This document shows, one piece after another, positions 4,731-15,954 of a DNA stretch of 64,000 nt; position 1 is the first letter of the stretch; the number at the start of each line of letters is the position of its first letter. The notes under the pieces were generated by a model. The model worked only from the letters and a program-made list of their open reading frames with translations. It searched no databases and was not told the DNA's origin. This DNA is from Mycoplana rhizolycopersici (GTDB lineage Bacteria; Pseudomonadota; Alphaproteobacteria; Rhizobiales; Rhizobiaceae), in the NCBI RefSeq assembly GCF_013378445.1, contig NZ_JABXYK010000004.1, forward strand, positions 310,001 through 374,000, written 5' to 3'. The position numbers and the translations under genes were made by a program.

Positions 4731-5453
4731 TTAGTCGGGGAGGGGGCCGATATGGTCCAGCGAGGCGTTGCGTGTCGCCTTTCCCGCTCGTCCGGTCGCG
4801 CCTGGCACCGTGATCGGTTCAAGGCTGTAGCGTTTGGCCATCATGAGGATGTGGGTTCCGAGCGCTTCCATTGCCCCGTTCATGTCGTTGTCCTTAAGCA
4901 TCGACAGGATCGCAAAGTGTTCTTCGCTCGCCTGCCGGCGCGTCGGCAACGTCGATCGGTGCGATCTCAAGGCGCCCACCTTTGCGGCCACGAGCCGGTA
5001 GGCGTTGATCAGGTACGGGTTCCCGCAATTCTCGATCGCAACGCTATGAAAAAGCGTATCGGCGCTGGAACTGCGAAGATTGTCCTCTGCGAGGATTGCA
5101 TCCCGCATCTCCTCCGCCGCGATCGTCATGGCCGCAAGCGTCTCGCTGCGCTTTCTCTGCATGGCCAGCCGCATTGCCTCAAGCTCGATCATTCTGCGGA
5201 ATTCGCAAAGGTTTTCCGTATCTTCTCTGCTTGGCATGAACACGAAGCTGCCGCGCTGCGGCCGAATGTCGATCAAGCCCTCCTGCTCGAGCGCGGTGAA
5301 TGCCTCGCGCACCGGACTGCGGCTCACGCCGAGTATGGTTGCCAGCTTGTCCTCGGAGAGCGCGTCGCCAAGCTCCAGTTCTCCGTCGAGAATGGCGCTG
5401 CGCAGGCGCTCCGTGACGCGGGCGGTCAATGAGCCACGTGTTCTACGATCCAC
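4731..5453 (-). CDS. GntR-family transcriptional regulator, FCD domain
   Basis: 240 residues from a GTG start preceded by GGGGAGG with 9-base spacing. The winged HTH covers about residues 8-75 (SEDKLATILGVSRSPVREAF), followed by PQRGSFV and an FCD effector domain with the D-x3-H ligand pair (ADTLFHSVAI) and a later His (EEHFAIL). It is close in architecture to the regulator at 1492-2169, sharing SRxPVREA and RGSFVF-P, so the two are paralogues in one island. It lies convergent to the M24 gene and downstream of a TIM-barrel isomerase and an SDR on the same strand, which it probably controls. Confidence 0.88.
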   Translation of the reverse strand: MDRRTRGSLTARVTERLRSAILDGELELGDALSEDKLATILGVSRSPVREAFTALEQEGLIDIRPQRGSFVFMPSREDTENLCEFRRMIELEAMRLAMQRKRSETLAAMTIAAEEMRDAILAEDNLRSSSADTLFHSVAIENCGNPYLINAYRLVAAKVGALRSHRSTLPTRRQASEEHFAILSMLKDNDMNGAMEALGTHILMMAKRYSLEPITVPGATGRAGKATRNASLDHIGPLPD

Positions 5454-7295: not shown

Positions 7296-7994
7296 ATGGC
7301 ATTGAAGGGGTCTGCCTTTCTGGCCATCTGGCACGATATTGCCGAAGGCGAGCATGGCGAATACATCGAGTGGCATACGCGCGAGCACATGCCCGAGCGG
7401 CTTTCGATACCCGGCTTCCGGACAGGAAAGCGCCTGCACGACCCGCAGGCCGGCCGCCACGTCTTCGGTACGATCTATGCGGCCGACACGGTCGAAGTAT
7501 TCCGGTCCGCGGACTATCTTGAGCGATTGAACAATCCCACGCCATGGACGGCCGCGGTGGCGCCGAGCTTCCAGAATTTTCTGCGCATCGCCTGTGAGCG
7601 TGTCGCTGAGGCGGGCCGGGGGGATGGCGGCAGCATGGCGACGATCCGCTTCGACCTGACCGATGCGGATGCCCGCGCGGCGATCGAAGGGAAGGCACAG
7701 GCTCTGGCCGATGCCATACTGGCTCTTCCCGGCATCTGCTGCGTGCATCTGGGGCTGGCGCGCAGCGAAGTCTCCGGGGTGCGTACCCGCGAGACGGAAC
7801 TTCGCAGCGCCATGTCCGAGCGGGAGTTCGATGTCGTCATTCTCGTCGAGGGGGCATCGCGAGCCGGTCTGGAGGCCGCGGTCCCGACGATCGAGTACCT
7901 GGCCACGGCGACCGGCTTGTTGTCCGCGCCGGTCACGACGATTTATGAAGCCGCCTATACGCTGACCGACGACGACATGCGGGTGTCGCCATGA
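7296..7994 (+). CDS. Uncharacterised dimeric alpha/beta-barrel-like protein
   Basis: A 232-residue cytosolic protein not matched to a named enzyme. The first half (to about residue 105) has a histidine-rich stretch, IWHDIAEGEHGEYIEWHTRE followed by HMPERL, similar in style to EthD/ferredoxin-like small-molecule enzymes where a His-Glu pair lies near the N-terminus. The second half (about 115-225) looks like another ferredoxin-like unit (MATIRFDLTD and later FDVVILVEG), suggesting a tandem fold. The ATG at 7296 follows GGGAGGAGC. An upstream in-frame ATG lacks a site. It overlaps the epimerase by 4 bases (ATGA), so the two are translationally coupled and probably act on the same metabolite. 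Confidence 0.75.
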   Translation: MALKGSAFLAIWHDIAEGEHGEYIEWHTREHMPERLSIPGFRTGKRLHDPQAGRHVFGTIYAADTVEVFRSADYLERLNNPTPWTAAVAPSFQNFLRIACERVAEAGRGDGGSMATIRFDLTDADARAAIEGKAQALADAILALPGICCVHLGLARSEVSGVRTRETELRSAMSEREFDVVILVEGASRAGLEAAVPTIEYLATATGLLSAPVTTIYEAAYTLTDDDMRVSP

Positions 7995-8896
7995 AGCCGG
8001 TTCTGATCACCGGCGGCGGTGGCTTCCTTGGCGGCTGGATCGTCCGGGCGCTCGCGCAGTCGGGCCATCCGGCGCGGATATTCGACCGTTCTTCCGATCG
8101 GCGCGTGCTGCGCGAGATCGCCGGTGCCGAAGCGGACCGGGTCGAGTGGGTCGAAGGCGACGTCACGGATGCCGCCGCGGTCGGTGAAGCGGCGCGCGGC
8201 TGTTCTTCCATCATTCATCTGGCCGCATTGCTGACGCCCGCCTGCAAGGCCAATCCGGCACGGGGGGCAACTGTCAACGTCATCGGCACGCTCAATGTCT
8301 TCGAGGCGGCAAAAGCCAATGGAATTGACCGCGTCGCCTATGCGAGCAGTGCTGCGGTATTCGGTCCGGACGATGGGGGCAGCCCGTTGCCTGTCACGCT
8401 CTATGGCGCCTTCAAGCTGGCATGCGAGGGCGTGGGCCGCGCCTATTGGCTGGACGAGGGGATCGCAAGCGTCGGGCTGCGTCCGACTGTCGTTTATGGT
8501 CCCGGACGCGAGGTCGGCCTGACCGCCGGTCCGACCATCGCCTGCCGTGAAGCGGTTGCGGGCCGTCCCTACACGATCGGCTATTCCGGAAGGCAGGATC
8601 TGGTCTTCGTCGCCGATGCCGCCGCCGCTTTCGCTGCCGCCGCCATCAGGCCTTTCGACGGCGCGCACGCCTTTTCTCTCACGGGAGGCACCGCAGACGT
8701 TTCCGAGGTCATCGAGGTCATTCGTAGCGAGATTCCGTCGGCGTCCATCGACTTCGCCGGTCCGAACGTTCCCATGGCTGCGGAAATCGCCGAGACGCCC
8801 TATGACGGTCTGCTCGGGCCGATGCCCCGGACGTTGTTGCAGGATGGCATCGCCCGGACGCTCGCGCACTATCGCGCGCTGTCGGAGGCCGCGTGA
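7991..8896 (+). CDS. NAD-dependent epimerase/dehydratase (extended SDR)
   Basis: 301 residues. The N-terminal Rossmann motif is TGGGGFLGG. Asp-Val of the substrate strand lies in EGDVTD, the Ser region is YASSAAVFG, and the catalytic pair is Tyr-x3-Lys in YGAFKLACE. This is the NAD-dependent epimerase family acting on sugars, nucleotide sugars or hydroxy-ketones such as erythronate/apionate-type acids. The start ATG overlaps the stop of the 7296 gene. The 3' end overlaps the 3' end of the convergent TetR gene by 28 bases. The context is catabolic, not nucleotide-sugar synthesis, so a free sugar acid is the more likely substrate (inference). Confidence 0.85.
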   Translation: MKPVLITGGGGFLGGWIVRALAQSGHPARIFDRSSDRRVLREIAGAEADRVEWVEGDVTDAAAVGEAARGCSSIIHLAALLTPACKANPARGATVNVIGTLNVFEAAKANGIDRVAYASSAAVFGPDDGGSPLPVTLYGAFKLACEGVGRAYWLDEGIASVGLRPTVVYGPGREVGLTAGPTIACREAVAGRPYTIGYSGRQDLVFVADAAAAFAAAAIRPFDGAHAFSLTGGTADVSEVIEVIRSEIPSASIDFAGPNVPMAAEIAETPYDGLLGPMPRTLLQDGIARTLAHYRALSEAA

Positions 8897-9789: not shown

Positions 9790-10617
9790 ATGGGTATGTT
9801 TTCAGTTCGTGCAGCAGCTTTTGCCCTGATGGCGGGATTGGGTCTCGCAGGCATCTCGTCTTCGGCGAATGCTCAGACCCTGGAAAGCATCAAGGATGCC
9901 GGCGTCGTGCGCATCGGCGTCATGGGCGAGCAGGCGCCCTGGGGGTCCATCGATGCGAGTGGCCAGAACATCGGCTACGACGTCGATGTCGGGCGCCTGA
10001 TCGGCGAGGAACTCGGGGTCAAGGTGGAGTTCGTGCCGAACGCGGTCGCCGCGCGCATTCCAAATCTGGTGACCGGGAAGGTCGATCTTCAGATGGCCGT
10101 GATGGGCATGTATCCCGATCGCGCCAAGGTGGTGCAGTTCTCCAAGCCCTATGCCGGCCTGAAGATCATTCTTCTGTCGAGCCAGAAGAACAAGATCGAA
10201 ACGATCGAGGACGCTCGCGATCTGCAGATCGGCGTGCCGCGCGGCGCCGCCCAGGACAAGTCGATCACGACCCTTCTCGGCGACGTTCCCAATATCCGCC
10301 GCTTCGATGACGACAGTTCGACGATGCAGGCGCTGGTCTCGGGGCAGGTCGATGCCATCGGCGGCAACACCACCTACAAGATCAACCTCGACAAGGCCGC
10401 CCCGGGCAATGACTTCGAGCAGAAGCTGGTGTTCAACGAGCAGTGGATGGGTATCTGCTCGAAGCTCGGCGACAAGGAAATGAACGACTGGCTGAACAGC
10501 TTCATCGACAAGATCAAGGCCGACGGCCGGCTGGAAGCCATCAACAAGAAGTATCTCGACGCGTCCATGCCGCAGTTTCCCGAGAAGCTCGAAGGCGTAC
10601 CCTTCACGGTGCAGTAA
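9790..10617 (+). CDS. ABC transporter substrate-binding protein, polar amino-acid type (family 3)
   Basis: A 275-residue periplasmic binding protein. It has a signal peptide (hydrophobic stretch about residues 8-22) with cleavage near SANAQ. Family 3 features follow: the opening LESIKDAGVVRIGV, the first-lobe strand YDVDVGRLIGEELGV, and MYPDRAKVVQFSKPY, a usual position for PAAT proteins. The ATG at 9790 lies directly behind GGAGGAGTT, giving a tight but strong start. It is the first gene of the operon and is followed by a hairpin and then the enzymes and the two permeases and ATPase it serves. The ligand could be an amino acid, an amino-sugar acid or another small polar acid. Confidence 0.9.
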   Translation: MGMFSVRAAAFALMAGLGLAGISSSANAQTLESIKDAGVVRIGVMGEQAPWGSIDASGQNIGYDVDVGRLIGEELGVKVEFVPNAVAARIPNLVTGKVDLQMAVMGMYPDRAKVVQFSKPYAGLKIILLSSQKNKIETIEDARDLQIGVPRGAAQDKSITTLLGDVPNIRRFDDDSSTMQALVSGQVDAIGGNTTYKINLDKAAPGNDFEQKLVFNEQWMGICSKLGDKEMNDWLNSFIDKIKADGRLEAINKKYLDASMPQFPEKLEGVPFTVQ

Positions 10618-10708: not shown

Positions 10709-11143
10709 TTGCGAACAATATTCATCCTGAACGGCCCCAACCTCAATCTGCTGGGGCAGCGCGAGCCCGAAATCTACGGCCGCACGACGCTCGACGAAAT
10801 TCGCGGCTGGTGCGAGGGCGATGCGAAAGAACTGAACGTCGCCATCGATTTCCGGCAGTCGAATTTCGAAGGCGAGATCATCGAGGCCGTTCACGCGGCG
10901 CGGACGCAAGCGGCCGGCATCATCATCAATCCGGCAGGCTACACCTTTACGTCGATTGCCATTCTCGACGCATTGAAGATGTTCAACGGCCCGAAGATCG
11001 AGCTGCATATCTCGAACGTGCATCAGCGCGAGGAAATCTACCACAAGTCGCTCGTCTCGAAGACCGCGACCGCCGTCATGGCCGGATTTGGCGCCTACGG
11101 CTACAGGCTTGCCCTCAGGGCCATGGCGGAGATGACGAAATGA
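10709..11143 (+). CDS. aroQ: Divergent type II 3-dehydroquinate dehydratase (AroQ)-like protein
   Basis: A 144-residue flavodoxin-like dehydratase, normal AroQ length, from a TTG start behind GGGAGGAAA. The fold motifs are clear: FILNGPNLNLLGQREPEIYG, INPAGY, and ELHISNVHQREE. Compared with the M. tuberculosis enzyme, the catalytic Arg (18), Tyr (23), Asn (74), His (100), Arg (107) and Asp (87) are kept. The His of the THTS motif is Phe80, the Glu equivalent to Glu92 is Met91, and the Arg equivalent to Arg112 is Tyr111. These three contribute to substrate recognition in true AroQ. The gene overlaps the next dehydrogenase by 4 bases. It is probably a catabolic dehydratase on a related cyclic or sugar-acid substrate, not the shikimate-pathway enzyme (inference). 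Confidence 0.82.
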   Translation: MRTIFILNGPNLNLLGQREPEIYGRTTLDEIRGWCEGDAKELNVAIDFRQSNFEGEIIEAVHAARTQAAGIIINPAGYTFTSIAILDALKMFNGPKIELHISNVHQREEIYHKSLVSKTATAVMAGFGAYGYRLALRAMAEMTK

Positions 11144-12201
11144 TAAGAATAGCGTTGTTGGGCGCCGGTTTGATCGGTCGGGAGCATGCCGAGCTCCTTT
11201 CATCCCACCCCGAGGTCGAAATTGCAGCTGTGTGCGATCCCTCGCCGGAAGCCGCATCCCTTGCCGAGCGCCTTTCGGTGCCGCATCGTACCGATTATCT
11301 TGCGATGCTGGACGAGATCAGGCCTGACGGGGCGATCGTCGCCCTGCCGAACCAGCTTCATGCGCCGGCTGCCATAGCCTGTATCGAGCGCGGCGTGGCC
11401 TGCCTGATCGAGAAGCCCATCGCCGAGAGCGTTGGCGCGGCCGCTCAGATCTGCGCGGCGGCAGAACGCCATAATGTGCCGGTTCTGGTCGGGCATCAGC
11501 GTCGCCACAGTCCGGATATCCGAGCCGCCAAGCAGGCGATCGAGAGTGGCGCCCTGGGCAGGCTCGTCGGCGTCAACGGCATGACGATGTTCGACAAGCC
11601 CACCGAGTATTTCAACATGGAGTGGCGTCGCAAGGCGGGTGGGGGCGTGCTCCTCATCAATCTCATCCACGACATCGACGTGTTGCGTTACCTCGTGGGC
11701 GAGATCGAGAGCATCCGTGCATTCACGTCGAATGCGCAGCGTGGCTTCGAGGTCGAGGACACCGCCAGCATCTCGATCCGCTTCGTCAACGGTGCCCTCG
11801 GCACCTTTCTGATCTCTGACAACGCCGTCAGCCCCTGGGCGTGGGAATACACGTCAGGCCAGGCCCTCTATCATCCCGCCCAGCCCGGACCGTCTCTGTT
11901 TCTCGCAGGCAGCAAGGGCGCCCTTTCGGTCTCCGACCTCTACCTTTGGCGGCATGCCAACGAGGGCGAGCACTGGCAGCATCCGCTCGTGCGTGAATAC
12001 CGCGGTGCGCCCGGATTGCCGACCTATCTGGCCCAGCTCAATCACTTCCTCGCCGTGATCAGGCGGGAGGAGCAGCCCCTGATCTCCGCGACAGATGGCA
12101 GGGCCACACTGGCCGCCACGCTGGCCGTCGCGCGCGCGGCAGCGGAGGACCGGACCGTCACGCTTTCGGAGATGCTCGAAGAAGACGGAACGGAGAGATG
12201 A
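11140..12201 (+). CDS. Gfo/Idh/MocA-family oxidoreductase
   Basis: 353 residues, usual length. The N-terminal Rossmann domain opens IRIALLGAGLIGREHA, and the family signature EKPIAES (Lys of EKP) lies near residue 95. The C-terminal alpha/beta domain contains GGGVLLINLIHDIDVLRYL, whose Asp-x3-His-type residues form part of the active site. Such enzymes oxidise a secondary hydroxyl of sugars, inositols or cyclic polyols with NAD(P). The ATG at 11140 overlaps the AroQ-like stop, and its own stop overlaps the next start, so translation is coupled. Together with the AroQ-like enzyme it suggests oxidation followed by beta-elimination. Confidence 0.88.
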   Translation: MIRIALLGAGLIGREHAELLSSHPEVEIAAVCDPSPEAASLAERLSVPHRTDYLAMLDEIRPDGAIVALPNQLHAPAAIACIERGVACLIEKPIAESVGAAAQICAAAERHNVPVLVGHQRRHSPDIRAAKQAIESGALGRLVGVNGMTMFDKPTEYFNMEWRRKAGGGVLLINLIHDIDVLRYLVGEIESIRAFTSNAQRGFEVEDTASISIRFVNGALGTFLISDNAVSPWAWEYTSGQALYHPAQPGPSLFLAGSKGALSVSDLYLWRHANEGEHWQHPLVREYRGAPGLPTYLAQLNHFLAVIRREEQPLISATDGRATLAATLAVARAAAEDRTVTLSEMLEEDGTER

Positions 12202-13025
12202 CCAGAGAACTTTCCCTGTCCTTCCTGACGTGTCTCGGGATCGGTCCGGAAGAAGCCGTGCGCGTCGCTGCCGAAACGGGATACGAGCATGTGGGGCTGC
12301 GGCTGCTGCCGGCAGCCCCCGGCGGCATCGCTTTTCCCCTGATGGGCGATCCGGCGCGCGTTCGCGATCTTCGCACGCTGATGGCCGACCTCGGCGTGAG
12401 CGTGTTCGATGTCGAGATGATCCGCATCGCGCCTGATTTCCAGGCGACGGACTATCTGTCGTTCCTCGATTGCGCCGGACGGCTCGGAGCGCGCGCCATA
12501 CTCGTCGCCGGCGACGATCCGGACGAAGGGCGGCTGACCGCTTCCTTCGCAGCGCTCTGCGAAGCCGCTGCACCGTTCGGCCTGTCGATGGATCTCGAAT
12601 TCATGCCGCAGTCGGAGTTGCACGACCTGGCCGCGGCGCTGCGCGTCCTCAAGGCTGCGGACCAGCCGAACCAGGGAGTCATCGTCGATGCGTTGCACGT
12701 ATCGCGGTCGCGGACGCCTGCGGATCTGATCGCAAACATTCCTGAGCAGTGGATGCACTATGCGCAGATCTGCGACGGTCCGGCGGACATTCCGGATACC
12801 CGCGAGGCGCTGAATTTCGCCGCGCGCCACGAGCGGTTCCTGCCCGGTGACGGGGCGATCGACCTCGCGGCCATATTTGCGGCTCTGCCGGGTGGACTGC
12901 CGGTCGCCGTGGAGGTTCCCAATGACAGGCAGGCAGCCGGTCTCTCGCCCGCTGAATGGGCGCTGCGCGCCAGAGATGCGACCCTGGCAGTGCTTGAAAC
13001 AATCGATGGAAGGAGCCAGGCATGA
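12198..13025 (+). CDS. TIM-barrel sugar isomerase/dehydratase-like protein (AP-endonuclease-2 fold)
   Basis: 275 residues, paralogue of the protein at 5566-6390. Expected metal-binding strands are present: MDLEFMPQ (Glu), IVDALHVSRSR (Asp, His) and VAVEVPND (Glu). The family includes hydroxypyruvate isomerase, inosose dehydratase and the AsbF/QuiC type of 3-dehydroshikimate dehydratase. It starts with ATGA overlap behind the Gfo/Idh/MocA gene and ends overlapping the aldo/keto reductase start. In this operon it may follow the AroQ-like step, as dehydroshikimate dehydratase follows dehydroquinase in quinate catabolism. This is an analogy, not a demonstrated role. Confidence 0.82.
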   Translation: MTRELSLSFLTCLGIGPEEAVRVAAETGYEHVGLRLLPAAPGGIAFPLMGDPARVRDLRTLMADLGVSVFDVEMIRIAPDFQATDYLSFLDCAGRLGARAILVAGDDPDEGRLTASFAALCEAAAPFGLSMDLEFMPQSELHDLAAALRVLKAADQPNQGVIVDALHVSRSRTPADLIANIPEQWMHYAQICDGPADIPDTREALNFAARHERFLPGDGAIDLAAIFAALPGGLPVAVEVPNDRQAAGLSPAEWALRARDATLAVLETIDGRSQA

Positions 13026-13852
13026 GTTCACAGGCCACCAAGATCATTCGCGGCGAGACCATCCCCGCGCTCGGGCTCGGGACGTTCGAACTAACCGGAC
13101 CGGAGGGCGAGACGGCTATTCGAACCGCCATCGAACTCGGCTACCGGCAGATCGACACCGCGATCAGGTACGGCAACGAGGCCGAGGTCGGCCGGGCGAT
13201 CCGTGCATCGGGCGTGCCGCGCAACGAGCTGTTTGTCACCACGAAGATTTGGTTCAACGACCTTGCGCCCGAGAACGTCGCCCGCCGCGTCGGGGAAAGT
13301 CTCGAGCGGCTCGGCTTTGATCAGGTGGATCTCCTGCTCGTGCACTGGCCGACGCGCGAGGTTCCACTCGGCGAGACGCTTGCCGCTTTCGCGGAGGAGA
13401 AGGCGAACGGGCGTACGCGCCTGATTGGCGTCAGCAACTTCACCGTCGCCCTGCTCGACGAGGCGCTCGACGTCCACAAGGCCGACCTCTTCTGCAACCA
13501 GGTGGAGTACCATCCCTTCCTGTCGCAGCCGAAACTCCTGGCGCGTATGCGTCGGGCGGACATGCTTCTGAACGCCTACCAGCCGATCGCCCGCGGCAAG
13601 GTATTCAAGTCCGATCTGCTCAATGAGATCGGCCGCAAATATGGAAAAAGCGCGGGCCAAGTGACGCTGCGCTGGCTGGTGCAGCAGGACCATGTCGGAG
13701 CAATCCCGCGCTCCTCGCGTCCAGAAAACATGCGCGCCAACCTGGACATCTTCGATTTCGAACTCTCGGGCGAGGATATGGCTGCGATCCACGGGCTTGC
13801 CCGCGGTGAGCGCTATTCCAACTTCGACTGGGCGCCGGATTGGGACCAATGA
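13022..13852 (+). CDS. Aldo/keto reductase
   Basis: A 276-residue AKR of the short 2,5-diketo-D-gluconate-reductase type. The catalytic tetrad is present: Asp45 and Tyr50 in QIDTAIRYGNE, Lys75 in VTTKIWF, His108 in LLVHWP. The family stretch LIGVSNF and the cofactor loop IPRSSRPENM also fit. The start overlaps the stop of the TIM-barrel gene by 4 bases. It completes a run of four coupled enzymes between the binding protein and the permeases. Probable substrate: a keto or aldehyde intermediate of the same pathway. Confidence 0.9.
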   Translation: MSSQATKIIRGETIPALGLGTFELTGPEGETAIRTAIELGYRQIDTAIRYGNEAEVGRAIRASGVPRNELFVTTKIWFNDLAPENVARRVGESLERLGFDQVDLLLVHWPTREVPLGETLAAFAEEKANGRTRLIGVSNFTVALLDEALDVHKADLFCNQVEYHPFLSQPKLLARMRRADMLLNAYQPIARGKVFKSDLLNEIGRKYGKSAGQVTLRWLVQQDHVGAIPRSSRPENMRANLDIFDFELSGEDMAAIHGLARGERYSNFDWAPDWDQ

Positions 13853-13880: not shown

Positions 13881-14543
13881 ATGACACTCGATTTCAGTGT
13901 GGTGACCGACGCCTGGCAGTCCCTGCTGTTCGGGACGCTCGGCACCTTGTTCCTTGCCTTTTCCGGCATGCTCATCGCCATGTTTATCGGCATCGCGGGT
14001 GTCGTCATCCTCAGAATGCAGATGTGGCTGCCGTCACTGCTCGTGACCGCCTTTGTGGAAATCGTGCGCAACACGCCGTTCCTGGTGCAGATCTTCTTCG
14101 TCTTCTTCGCATTGCCGCTCGCCGGCATCCGGCTCAATCCGACGATGACGGCTGTGATCGCACTTGGTGTCAACGGCGGCGCCTATGCCATCGAGATCAT
14201 CCGCGGCGGTGTGGAGAGCATTCCGAAGGGCCAGACGGAAGCCGGGCTGGCGCTCGGCCTGCACAAGCACGAGGTCTTCCGGCTGATCGTGCTGACGCCG
14301 GCATTGCGTGCGATTTATCCTTCGCTGTCCAGCCAGTTCATCCTGCTCACGCTGACGACGGCCATCTGCACCTCGATCTCGGCCTATGAACTGACATCGG
14401 TCGGGCAGCGGATCGAGGCCGAAACATTCCGAAGCTTCGAGGTCTACTTCACGCTGACCGGCATCTATCTGGTGATTTCGCTGGTCACCATGTGGTGCCT
14501 TGCCGCCATAGGCCGCTGGGCCTTCAGCTATCCGCAACGGTGA
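13881..14543 (+). CDS. ABC transporter permease, polar amino-acid type
   Basis: A 220-residue inner-membrane permease of the HisM/GlnP type with about five hydrophobic helices. The cytoplasmic EAA loop that contacts the ATPase reads GVESIPKGQTEAGLALGL. The family motif FVEIVRNTPFLVQIFF is complete. The ATG at 13881 follows GGGGGGAGACC. Upstream codons in the same frame overlap the aldo/keto reductase and are not coding. It forms a heterodimer with the next permease. Confidence 0.92.
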   Translation: MTLDFSVVTDAWQSLLFGTLGTLFLAFSGMLIAMFIGIAGVVILRMQMWLPSLLVTAFVEIVRNTPFLVQIFFVFFALPLAGIRLNPTMTAVIALGVNGGAYAIEIIRGGVESIPKGQTEAGLALGLHKHEVFRLIVLTPALRAIYPSLSSQFILLTLTTAICTSISAYELTSVGQRIEAETFRSFEVYFTLTGIYLVISLVTMWCLAAIGRWAFSYPQR

Positions 14544-14553
14544 GGAGGGCGAC

Positions 14554-15198
14554 ATGGGAATTCAGGAATTTACCTATCTGCTGCAGGGTCTGGCCTGGAC
14601 GCTGTTTCTGACCGCTATCGGATTTGCGGGCGGGATCTTCTTCGGCCTGGTGGTCGCGCTGATGCGCGTTTCACCGTCGGCCTGGCTGCGTGTGCCGGCG
14701 ATCTGCTGGATCGGTCTTTTTCAGGGAACGCCGCTTCTCATGCAGCTTTTCGTCGCCTATTTCGGGTTGCCATTGATCGGCTTCGATCTTCCCGCCTGGG
14801 GTGCCGTATCCGTCGCCCTGACGGCTCATGCTTCGGCGTTTCTGGGCGAAATCTGGCGCGGCGCCATTCAGGCCGTTCCAAAGGGGCAGAGCGAGGCGGC
14901 CCAGGCGCTGGGCCTTCACGGGTTCAGCCGCATGTTCGACGTCGTCTTGCCGCAGGCCTTCAAGCTCTCGCTGCCAGCGACGGTCGGTTTTCTGGTGCAA
15001 TTGCTGAAAGGGACGTCGCTGGCCGCGATCGTCGGCTTCATCGAGCTCGCCCGCGCAGGCACCATCGTATCCAATCAGATCTACAGGCCGCTGCTCGTGT
15101 TCGGCGTGGTCGGCGCGATGTATTTCGCGATGTGCTGGCCGCTGTCGCTGTGGGGGCGGACGCTCGAACGCCGCATGGCAGCCGGCCAGGCAAAGTAA
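14554..15198 (+). CDS. ABC transporter permease, polar amino-acid type
   Basis: A 214-residue partner permease of the HisQ/GlnP type. The signature WIGLFQGTPLLMQLF matches the conserved R/Q-GTP-L-QLF membrane entry. The EAA loop is AIQAVPKGQSEAAQALGL. It starts 10 bases behind the first permease, with GAGGAGGGCGAC as ribosome site, and is followed by the ATPase after 15 bases. Together with 9790, 13881 and 15214 it forms a full importer. Confidence 0.92.
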   Translation: MGIQEFTYLLQGLAWTLFLTAIGFAGGIFFGLVVALMRVSPSAWLRVPAICWIGLFQGTPLLMQLFVAYFGLPLIGFDLPAWGAVSVALTAHASAFLGEIWRGAIQAVPKGQSEAAQALGLHGFSRMFDVVLPQAFKLSLPATVGFLVQLLKGTSLAAIVGFIELARAGTIVSNQIYRPLLVFGVVGAMYFAMCWPLSLWGRTLERRMAAGQAK

Positions 15199-15213: not shown

Positions 15214-15954
15214 GTGGCATCCATGATCGAAATGCAGCGCATCGAAAAGTATTACGGTGCCTTCCACGCGCTCAAGAATATCAATCTCACTGTTGCGAAG
15301 GGCGAGAAAATCGTGCTGTGCGGCCCTTCCGGGTCCGGAAAGTCCACGCTGATCCGCTGCATCAACCATCTCGAGACGATCAAGAGCGGGGAGATCGTCG
15401 TGGCCGGGCACCGTCTGAACGACAGCCAGAAGGCCGTCGATGCGGTCCGCCGTGAAGTCGGCATGGTCTTCCAGCAGTTCAATCTCTTTCCGCACAAGAC
15501 CGTGCTGGAAAACTGCATTCTGGCGCCGATGCGCGTTCGCAAGCTTTCCCGCAGCGAGGCTGAGGCGACGGCGCGCAAATATCTGGAACGGGTGAGGATC
15601 GGCGATCAGGCTGAAAAATATCCCGCTCAGCTTTCCGGCGGCCAGCAACAGCGTGTCGCCATTGCGCGGGCACTGTGCATGGAACCGAAGGCCATGCTGT
15701 TCGACGAGCCGACCTCGGCGCTCGATCCGGAAATGGTCAAGGAAGTTCTCGACACCATGGTTTCGCTGGCCCGCGACGGCATGACGATGATCTGCGTGAC
15801 GCATGAAATGGGCTTCGCGCGTCAGGTCGCCGACCGGGTGATCTTCATGGCCGACGGGCAGATCATCGAGGAAAACGATCCCGAGTCCTTCTTCCGCGCC
15901 CCCAAGCACGAGCGTACCCGCGCATTTCTCGGGGAGATTCTCGCGCATCACTGA
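15214..15954 (+). CDS. ABC transporter ATP-binding protein, polar amino-acid type
   Basis: A 246-residue ATPase of the HisP/GlnQ type. Walker [11 protein letters not shown]-loop [10 protein letters not shown], signature LSGGQQQR, Walker [14 protein letters not shown] and switch His in VTHEMGF are all intact. The start is GTG behind AGGAGGAGAAAAAC. An in-frame ATG lies three codons later. It ends the operon. No clear terminator follows. Confidence 0.94.

Follow-up and report, generated by a model that had tools for sequence, protein, structure and literature searches.

Gene content of the locus

The window analysed here is a stretch of 64,000 nucleotides from Mycoplana rhizolycopersici (contig NZ_JABXYK010000004.1, positions 310,001 to 374,000), and our subject is an operon in it that surrounds a gene for AroQ, the type II dehydroquinase. 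The AroQ reading frame (10709–11143) starts with TTG and has GGAGG upstream of the start, according to an open reading frame check. Three overlaps of 4 bases each chain it to genes for a Gfo/Idh/MocA dehydrogenase, a TIM-barrel protein (here TIM2) and an aldo/keto reductase (AKR), and Pfam and NCBIfam profiles confirm the family of each of these four genes. A binding-protein gene lies 5' of AroQ, and two permease genes and an ATPase gene of an ATP-binding cassette (ABC) importer lie 3' of the AKR gene. An earlier note made from the DNA letters alone (the original prediction) had described these overlaps and this operon context, and both were confirmed, coordinates included. The operon comprises the following genes.

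9790..10617, forward strand: family 3 solute-binding protein (PF00497), with R111 retained and N193 in place of the usual alpha-amino Asp
10709..11143, forward strand: AroQ, type II dehydroquinase of the F80/Y111 clade (PF01220, TIGR01088, residues and tree)
11140..12201, forward strand: Gfo/Idh/MocA dehydrogenase, proposed quinate-type dehydrogenase (Pfam/NCBIfam profiles, neighbours of its relatives)
12198..13025, forward strand: TIM2, TIM-barrel protein and distant QuiC relative, proposed dehydroshikimate dehydratase (weak NF042435 match, nearest solved chains)
13022..13852, forward strand: AKR (PF00248; DkgB model 249 bits, under the cut-off of 327), no role assigned
13881..14543, forward strand: ABC permease 1, polar amino acid type (profile; 68% to the Rhizobium cluster permease)
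14554..15198, forward strand: ABC permease 2 (PF00528; 63% to the Rhizobium cluster permease)
15214..15954, forward strand: ABC ATPase (PF00005; 74% to the Rhizobium cluster ATPase)

An AroQ clade with changed substrate-contact positions

The window AroQ scores above the curated cut-offs of three family models, namely PF01220 (184.7 bits; cut-off 23.3), TIGR01088 (178.5; 169.85) and NF003806 (208.5; 171). The catalytic residues N11, R18, Y23, N74, D87, E98, H100 and R107 are all present, including the six that the original prediction had listed (Arg18, Tyr23, Asn74, Asp87, His100 and Arg107), and the alignment shows that the carboxylate-binding residues are retained as well. The roles of the catalytic residues are those given in PMC10772564 and PMC6011038. 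At the other positions checked, the window protein has F80, M91 and Y111. In a quantum mechanics/molecular mechanics study, His81 and Arg112 grip the C5 hydroxyl of dehydroquinate, while Asp88 of the neighbouring subunit grips C4 (PMC6011038). The window protein has F80 and Y111 in place of these two C5-hydroxyl ligands.

We compared 133 AroQ sequences, from which repeats of identical sequences and pieces under 125 aa had been removed; they were drawn by likeness to the window protein, which overstates the clade's share among all AroQs. Defining the H/R group by His and Arg at positions 80 and 111, we counted 80 H/R, 44 F/Y and 4 F/H sequences, together with 5 that combine another residue with Arg. 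Phe80 and Tyr111 are mostly coupled, since 44 of the 48 sequences with F80 also have Y111. Two further sites co-vary with them and had been missed in the original prediction: Lys90 occurs in 48/48 F80 sequences as compared with 13/80 H/R AroQs, and Phe110 in 0/48 as compared with 79/80. Codon 90 lies at 10976–10978 of the window, and Lys90 stands one turn from Asp87, a residue that in known structures acts in the active site of the neighbouring subunit (PMC6011038).

Position 91 behaves differently. The original prediction was right about the altered Phe80 and Tyr111 and wrong in reading Met91 as a lost Glu: Glu occurs here in none of the 133 AroQs, the H/R types carry A (41), T (26), S (5), M (5), I (2) or L (1), and the S. 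coelicolor enzyme has Thr. We therefore reject M91 as an altered recognition residue, because the site is variable.

All 48 F80 sequences group together in the tree (support 98/83). With columns 80, 91 and 111 removed, a quick tree splits the F80 set (3 changes), and a tree that constrains the set together gains +27 in log likelihood and is not rejected (approximately unbiased test, p-AU 0.742). The clade is mainly alphaproteobacterial, nearly always has Y111, has K90 fixed and is found mostly in catabolic loci. Because His81 and Arg112 are the published holders of the C5 hydroxyl, both C5 ligands are gone from the whole clade.

The solved structures probably include no typical F/Y member, judging by profile scores and by three of 39 alignments inspected. 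When 17 F/Y proteins were combined in a profile, the highest score among 39 PDB matches was 188.9 bits, which 43 of the 44 F/Y proteins exceed. The three PDB alignments printed (S. coelicolor; 3/39) show His and Arg.

Genomic settings of the F80-type AroQs

Of 33 F/Y loci, 25 have AroE-like or QuiC genes no farther than 10 kb from AroQ, as compared with 21 of 63 H/R loci (Fisher p 1e-4, uncorrected for kinship or contig ends), and genes for tripartite ATP-independent periplasmic (TRAP) or ABC importers accompany 30/33 and 10/63, respectively. These counts come from matches ranked by likeness to the window AroQ, related loci among them are not independent, and the near copies L137–L139 of the Rhizobium locus L136 were omitted. 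Half of the eight F/Y loci without AroE-like or QuiC genes (4/8) stop at a contig end less than 2 kb from AroQ. Among the fetched best matches, 17 genomes besides the host have an F/Y AroQ, and each of them has at least two AroQ matches; the host has three. In one genome (G112, contig C95) an F/Y-TRAP locus (L043) and an H/R-ABC catabolic locus (L055) lie 86 kb apart. The F/H AroQs with Phe80 and His111 at L052, L053 and L054 stand beside diverged TRAP genes, and we found no AroE or QuiC within 10 kb of them.

In a plasmid search, the best 50 matches were Rhizobium proteins at 70–75%, and 114 of 436 matching plasmid records fell at 60–80%. We opened four Rhizobium plasmid orthologues, whose AroQs are 72–75% identical to that of the window. 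Their gene order is a divergent QuiC, the binding protein, AroQ, two permeases, the ATPase, Gfo, shikimate dehydrogenase, pcaB/G/H/C/D and the regulator pcaQ; all four clusters match by sequence, although L138 annotates QuiC and Gfo under other names and L139 leaves Gfo unannotated. Between the window and this cluster, permeases and ATPase are 63–74% alike, whereas Gfo and the binding protein are 45% alike. The importer–Gfo–AroE module is also paired with unaltered H/R AroQs (L055, L098 and L229).

The AroE and QuiC partners of the two AroQ types are intermixed. Each partner was labelled by the nearest AroQ within 10 kb, with any F80 type as one label; a locus could yield two rows (L097), and L137–L139 were left out. 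The AroE tree (51 rows; 27 F80, 22 H/R) needs 10 label changes, of which at least 4 are forced by starred branches, and the QuiC tree (33 rows; 18 F80, 14 H/R) needs 4, at least 3 of them forced in the same way. A different intermediate predicts separate partners, and therefore the intermixed partners, together with the module that is shared with H/R AroQs, favour dehydroquinate as the probable F/Y substrate, short of proof.

Five of nine Pseudomonas loci (L084, L087, L091, L124 and L125) carry a pair of TIM2-like and Gfo-like genes beyond QuiC, together with an H/R AroQ; the pair is separated from QuiC by 2.6 kb in L087 and by 1.1 kb in L124.

Partner proteins of the window operon

A match to AroQ or to AroE-like proteins lies no more than 1.5 kb away from 23 of the best 30 Gfo matches in the family (counting the window's own), a rate for which there is no control family; the QuiC matches at these places include TIM2-type genes. 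Twenty fetched stretches, some of them chosen for Gfo–AroQ adjacency, were used for no rate. From its neighbourhood, the Gfo/Idh/MocA protein is a candidate quinate-type dehydrogenase. To our knowledge, this family is not known for quinate-type dehydrogenation.

TIM2 matches the QuiC model NF042435 with 39.3 bits, which is to be read against the cut-off of 1200 of a model made for a two-domain protein. Its nearest solved chains are Lmo2234 (2g0w) and then 5hmq, which is QuiC1 (PMC7442255). It retains six QuiC1 active-site residues, that is, the metal site E134, D165, Q191 and E239 as well as H168 and R210. The Arg64 site was excluded from this mapping; a smaller, earlier alignment had positioned it otherwise.

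The binding protein keeps the Arg (R111) and has N193 at the Asp site, where the five PDB chains printed have Asp; the pattern of Arg plus Asp that marks amino-acid binders of family 3 is thus present in its Arg and replaced in its Asp. The Rhizobium binding protein also lacks the Asp (N195), with one of three alignments off by one. We take R111 to be the carboxylate Arg and the Asp site to be the alpha-amino contact of amino-acid binders. A binding protein without the alpha-amino Asp fits a ligand without an amino group.

Other AroQs and catabolic genes of the host

The host genome (5.6 Mb) has three AroQs, located on contigs C2, C4 (the window copy) and C15, so that a second and a third copy exist beside the housekeeping-type one. 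The C2 copy is of H/R type, adjoins a biotin-carrier gene and groups in the tree with other Rhizobiaceae copies. The C15 copy is F/M/Y like the window copy, and its neighbours are an AroE-like gene, DctP/Q/M TRAP genes and QuiC stubs. This QuiC remnant (L004, about 4794–5060) consists of two stubs that match profile positions 2–42 and 590–627. Next to AroQ, AroE and QuiC genes were seen at the opened Rhizobium orthologues, and at C15 an AroE gene with a QuiC stub.

A full-length QuiC lies on the window's own contig, with TIM-barrel and HPPD-like parts and a score of 631 bits, under the family's 1200-bit cut-off. It stands beside pca genes; 22.6 kb separate its end from the AroQ start, and pcaGH is about 20 kb away on the same contig.

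The host has a second hydroaromatic-looking cluster (L156, contig C25, 6967–15154, together with L157), in which an AroE-like gene and a third TIM-barrel paralogue stand with genes for two FAD_binding_2 dehydrogenases, NIPSNAP, IclR and thiolase. About 20 kb beyond it are Gfo, epimerase and AroE-like genes. The families of this cluster are united at one place in L233, and the second FAD enzyme also occurs in L216 (76%), next to a window-type operon.

A rare unit that extends to the left

The window-type operon occurs in 4 of 247 genomes of the family, the host included. In the other three (G519, G479 and G534) nearly the whole stretch from the GntR gene (4.7 kb) to the ATPase gene (16 kb) is kept, with identities to the window of 87–89% for AroQ and 75–76% for Gfo; no epimerase was detected in the copy of G519. 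The left extent of the unit, to about 4.7 kb, had been overlooked in the original prediction. None of the three congeners sampled gave an AroQ match at E 1e-45 or a Gfo match at 1e-60. The left arm carries the following genes.

4731..5453, reverse strand: GntR/FadR-type regulator (Pfam GntR and FCD), in place in L215–L217
5566..6390, reverse strand: TIM1, TIM-barrel paralogue of TIM2 (PF01261; 37% to TIM2), kept in L215–L217
6400..7140, reverse strand: short-chain dehydrogenase (PF13561/PF00106), kept in L215–L217
7290..7994, forward strand: protein without Pfam/NCBIfam match, 69–70% in L215–L217, start assumed; the label 'EthD-like' is by look only
7991..8896, forward strand: NAD-dependent epimerase/dehydratase-type short-chain dehydrogenase/reductase (PF01370), found in L216 and L217, undetected in L215
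8869..9672, reverse strand: TetR regulator (PF00440 and PF17938), kept in L215–L217

Proposed function and alternatives

We suggest that this operon serves to take up a hydroaromatic acid of quinate type and to convert it to protocatechuate with the help of a catabolic dehydroquinase, a reading to which we give a probability of about 0.6. The ABC importer would take in the carboxylate, and the Gfo/Idh/MocA protein would oxidise a ring hydroxyl to a ketone, as from quinate to 3-dehydroquinate. AroQ, whose family and catalytic residues are plain from the alignment, would then dehydrate the product to 3-dehydroshikimate. Aromatisation would fall to a dehydroshikimate dehydratase, either TIM2 or the full-length QuiC that is present near the pca genes, and PcaGH and the other pca enzymes, whose genes are present, would complete the route. 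Y111, perhaps together with K90 of the neighbouring subunit, may replace the lost grip on the C5 hydroxyl; alternatively, the clade may tolerate weaker binding at high substrate levels.

Several observations weigh against this proposal. By alignment, both published C5-hydroxyl ligands are replaced in the F80/Y111 clade, and in C. glutamicum the H81A and R112A variants had undetectable activity (PMC10772564). Neither AroE nor a full QuiC was found less than 10 kb from the window AroQ. The neighbour counts rest on matches ranked by likeness and on non-independent loci, and in the partner trees shuffled labels need on average 17.2 (AroE) and 11.3 (QuiC) changes, so that the real labels are more clustered than chance. 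The six QuiC1 residues of TIM2 recur in 2 of the 11 TIM barrels of the genome that served as controls and are thus undiagnostic; the idea that active-site mapping proves TIM2 to be a dehydroshikimate dehydratase was accordingly reduced to 'compatible'. Finally, G479 carries the window-type operon together with a Rhizobium-type F/M/Y cluster, and G534 has a second AroQ, seen as a match at 68%. Considering these two genomes and the TRAP-type C15 locus of the host, the window operon may not be redundant with quinate use. The idea that the operon has a different though related ligand finds its strongest argument in these coexisting clusters.

The foremost alternative, which we consider possible but unlikely, is that the whole F80/Y111 clade uses a different substrate, a 3-keto hydroaromatic acid with C5 inverted or without its hydroxyl, which could arise, for example, when a quinate stereoisomer is the starting acid or when the other ring hydroxyl is oxidised. 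F80, Y111, K90 and the loss of F110 would remodel the pocket around C5 and leave the contacts to the carboxylate and C4 in place. Such a change agrees with the joint replacement of both C5 ligands along with K90 and position 110, and with the presence of more than one catabolic-looking AroQ in several hosts (the present one and G479, and G112 with its F/Y-TRAP and H/R-ABC loci). QuiC requires a C5 leaving hydroxyl to form protocatechuate, which speaks against it, and the same AroE and QuiC lineages accompany both AroQ types. The published C5 roles and the dead alanine mutants (PMC6011038, PMC10772564) are in its favour, and so is a survey of 750 sequences in which six other active-site positions are the only ones named as variable (PMC10772564). 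However, Tyr is able to hydrogen-bond, and activity can survive the exchange of a key residue, as in the B. subtilis enzyme, which remains active with Phe replacing Tyr24 (PMC4314829).

On this alternative, the F80 clade would be a separate enzyme that dehydrates a keto hydroaromatic acid altered at C5 and that the curated models name as a dehydroquinase of the shikimate pathway; we regard this as doubtful. Equally tentative is its extension, in which the enzyme would serve the breakdown of plant acids in many Alphaproteobacteria and some Betaproteobacteria, with a pocket rebuilt by H80F, R111Y, F110I and the neighbour's Lys90.

Less likely still is a shift of the window-type operon alone to a new hydroaromatic substrate, with the rest of the clade acting on dehydroquinate. 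It overlaps with our preferred explanation, which leaves the exact acid open. TIM2 and AKR in the place of AroE point this way, as do a binding protein just 45% alike where permeases and ATPase are 63–74% alike, and the coexistence with a Rhizobium-type cluster in G479. Against it, at 38 tabulated AroQ sites every residue of the window protein is also seen among 11 Rhizobium-type sequences.

The original prediction had proposed another substrate within a logic like that of quinate catabolism. The catabolic setting and the replacement of the C5 ligands stand; the other substrate is unsupported as put, because the altered residues are common to a clade that sits mostly in quinate/shikimate clusters with QuiC, AroE and pca genes. 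It had also asked whether the clade always shows the same residues and neighbourhood: the F80 clade divides into 44 F/Y and 4 F/H members, and its loci are mostly of quinate/shikimate type, with the window-type operon in those 4 of 247 genomes. A related hydroaromatic acid may still be the substrate of the clade, or of this operon alone. The residue argument is a real and wider puzzle, that of a clade without C5 ligands, and is insufficient for a new substrate.

Two further readings are very improbable. The Gfo/Idh/MocA, TIM-barrel and AKR families are frequent in sugar and inositol catabolism, which would suit a sugar-acid or cyclitol route with the AroQ-like enzyme acting on 3-keto sugar acids, a wider form of the original prediction's sugar-acid idea; we reject it, without support as it is, because the Gfo relatives cluster with AroQ and AroE-like genes and the nearest clusters continue into pca genes, and AroQ retains its catalytic and carboxylate-binding residues. 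A role of the window AroQ as a spare or housekeeping enzyme in making aromatic amino acids, compatible with the TIGR01088 equivalog score, is at odds with the H/R-type C2 AroQ that groups with the Rhizobiaceae copies beside a biotin-carrier gene, with the position of the window copy inside a transporter operon and with its lack of an AroQ match in the congeners sampled; the case of a sole aroQ among housekeeping AroQs fails, given the two other copies and the placement in the F80 clade.

Family models name the proteins of the F80 clade, second copies found for the most part in loci of plant-acid breakdown, type II 3-dehydroquinate dehydratases. Either His81 and Arg112 do not play their published role in all such enzymes, or the name AroQ conceals a second dehydratase activity.

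Comparison with known systems

In the open-access literature covered, mostly titles and the openings of abstracts, we found no report of the F80/Y111 AroQ variant, its operon or a Gfo-type quinate dehydrogenase. The window AroQ shares the whole domain and the catalytic and carboxylate-binding residues with the enzymes of S. coelicolor (1d0i/1gu1) and C. glutamicum (CgDHQD). It differs from them in having Phe80 and Tyr111 for His81 and Arg112, in the Lys90 that is fixed in its clade and in the loss of F110.

TIM2 has E134, D165, H168, Q191, R210 and E239 in common with QuiC/QuiC1 (5hmq). Unlike QuiC, it is a single-domain protein, with 29% identity over 143 aa, Ala for S206 and Met for L136; R64 of QuiC1 is aligned to TIM2 in one alignment and unaligned in the other.

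In quinate/shikimate catabolism of the qsuABCD and QuiC1 type, the ring is oxidised by a dehydrogenase, dehydrated by a dehydroquinase and aromatised by a dehydroshikimate dehydratase. The dehydrogenase of these systems is of AroE type, and the window operon has a Gfo/Idh/MocA protein in its place. The order of steps that we propose, leading to protocatechuate, is that of C. glutamicum qsuABCD and the Pseudomonas QuiC1-type route (PMC7442255).

The closest parallel is plasmid pRLG202 of R. leguminosarum WSM2304 (L136), in which the binding protein, an F/Y AroQ, two permeases, the ATPase and Gfo form one run with GntR regulators near, as in the window. In the pRLG202 cluster AroE, QuiC and pca genes adjoin, whereas the window instead has TIM2, AKR, a TetR regulator and a divergent left arm, with QuiC and pca genes 20–23 kb away.

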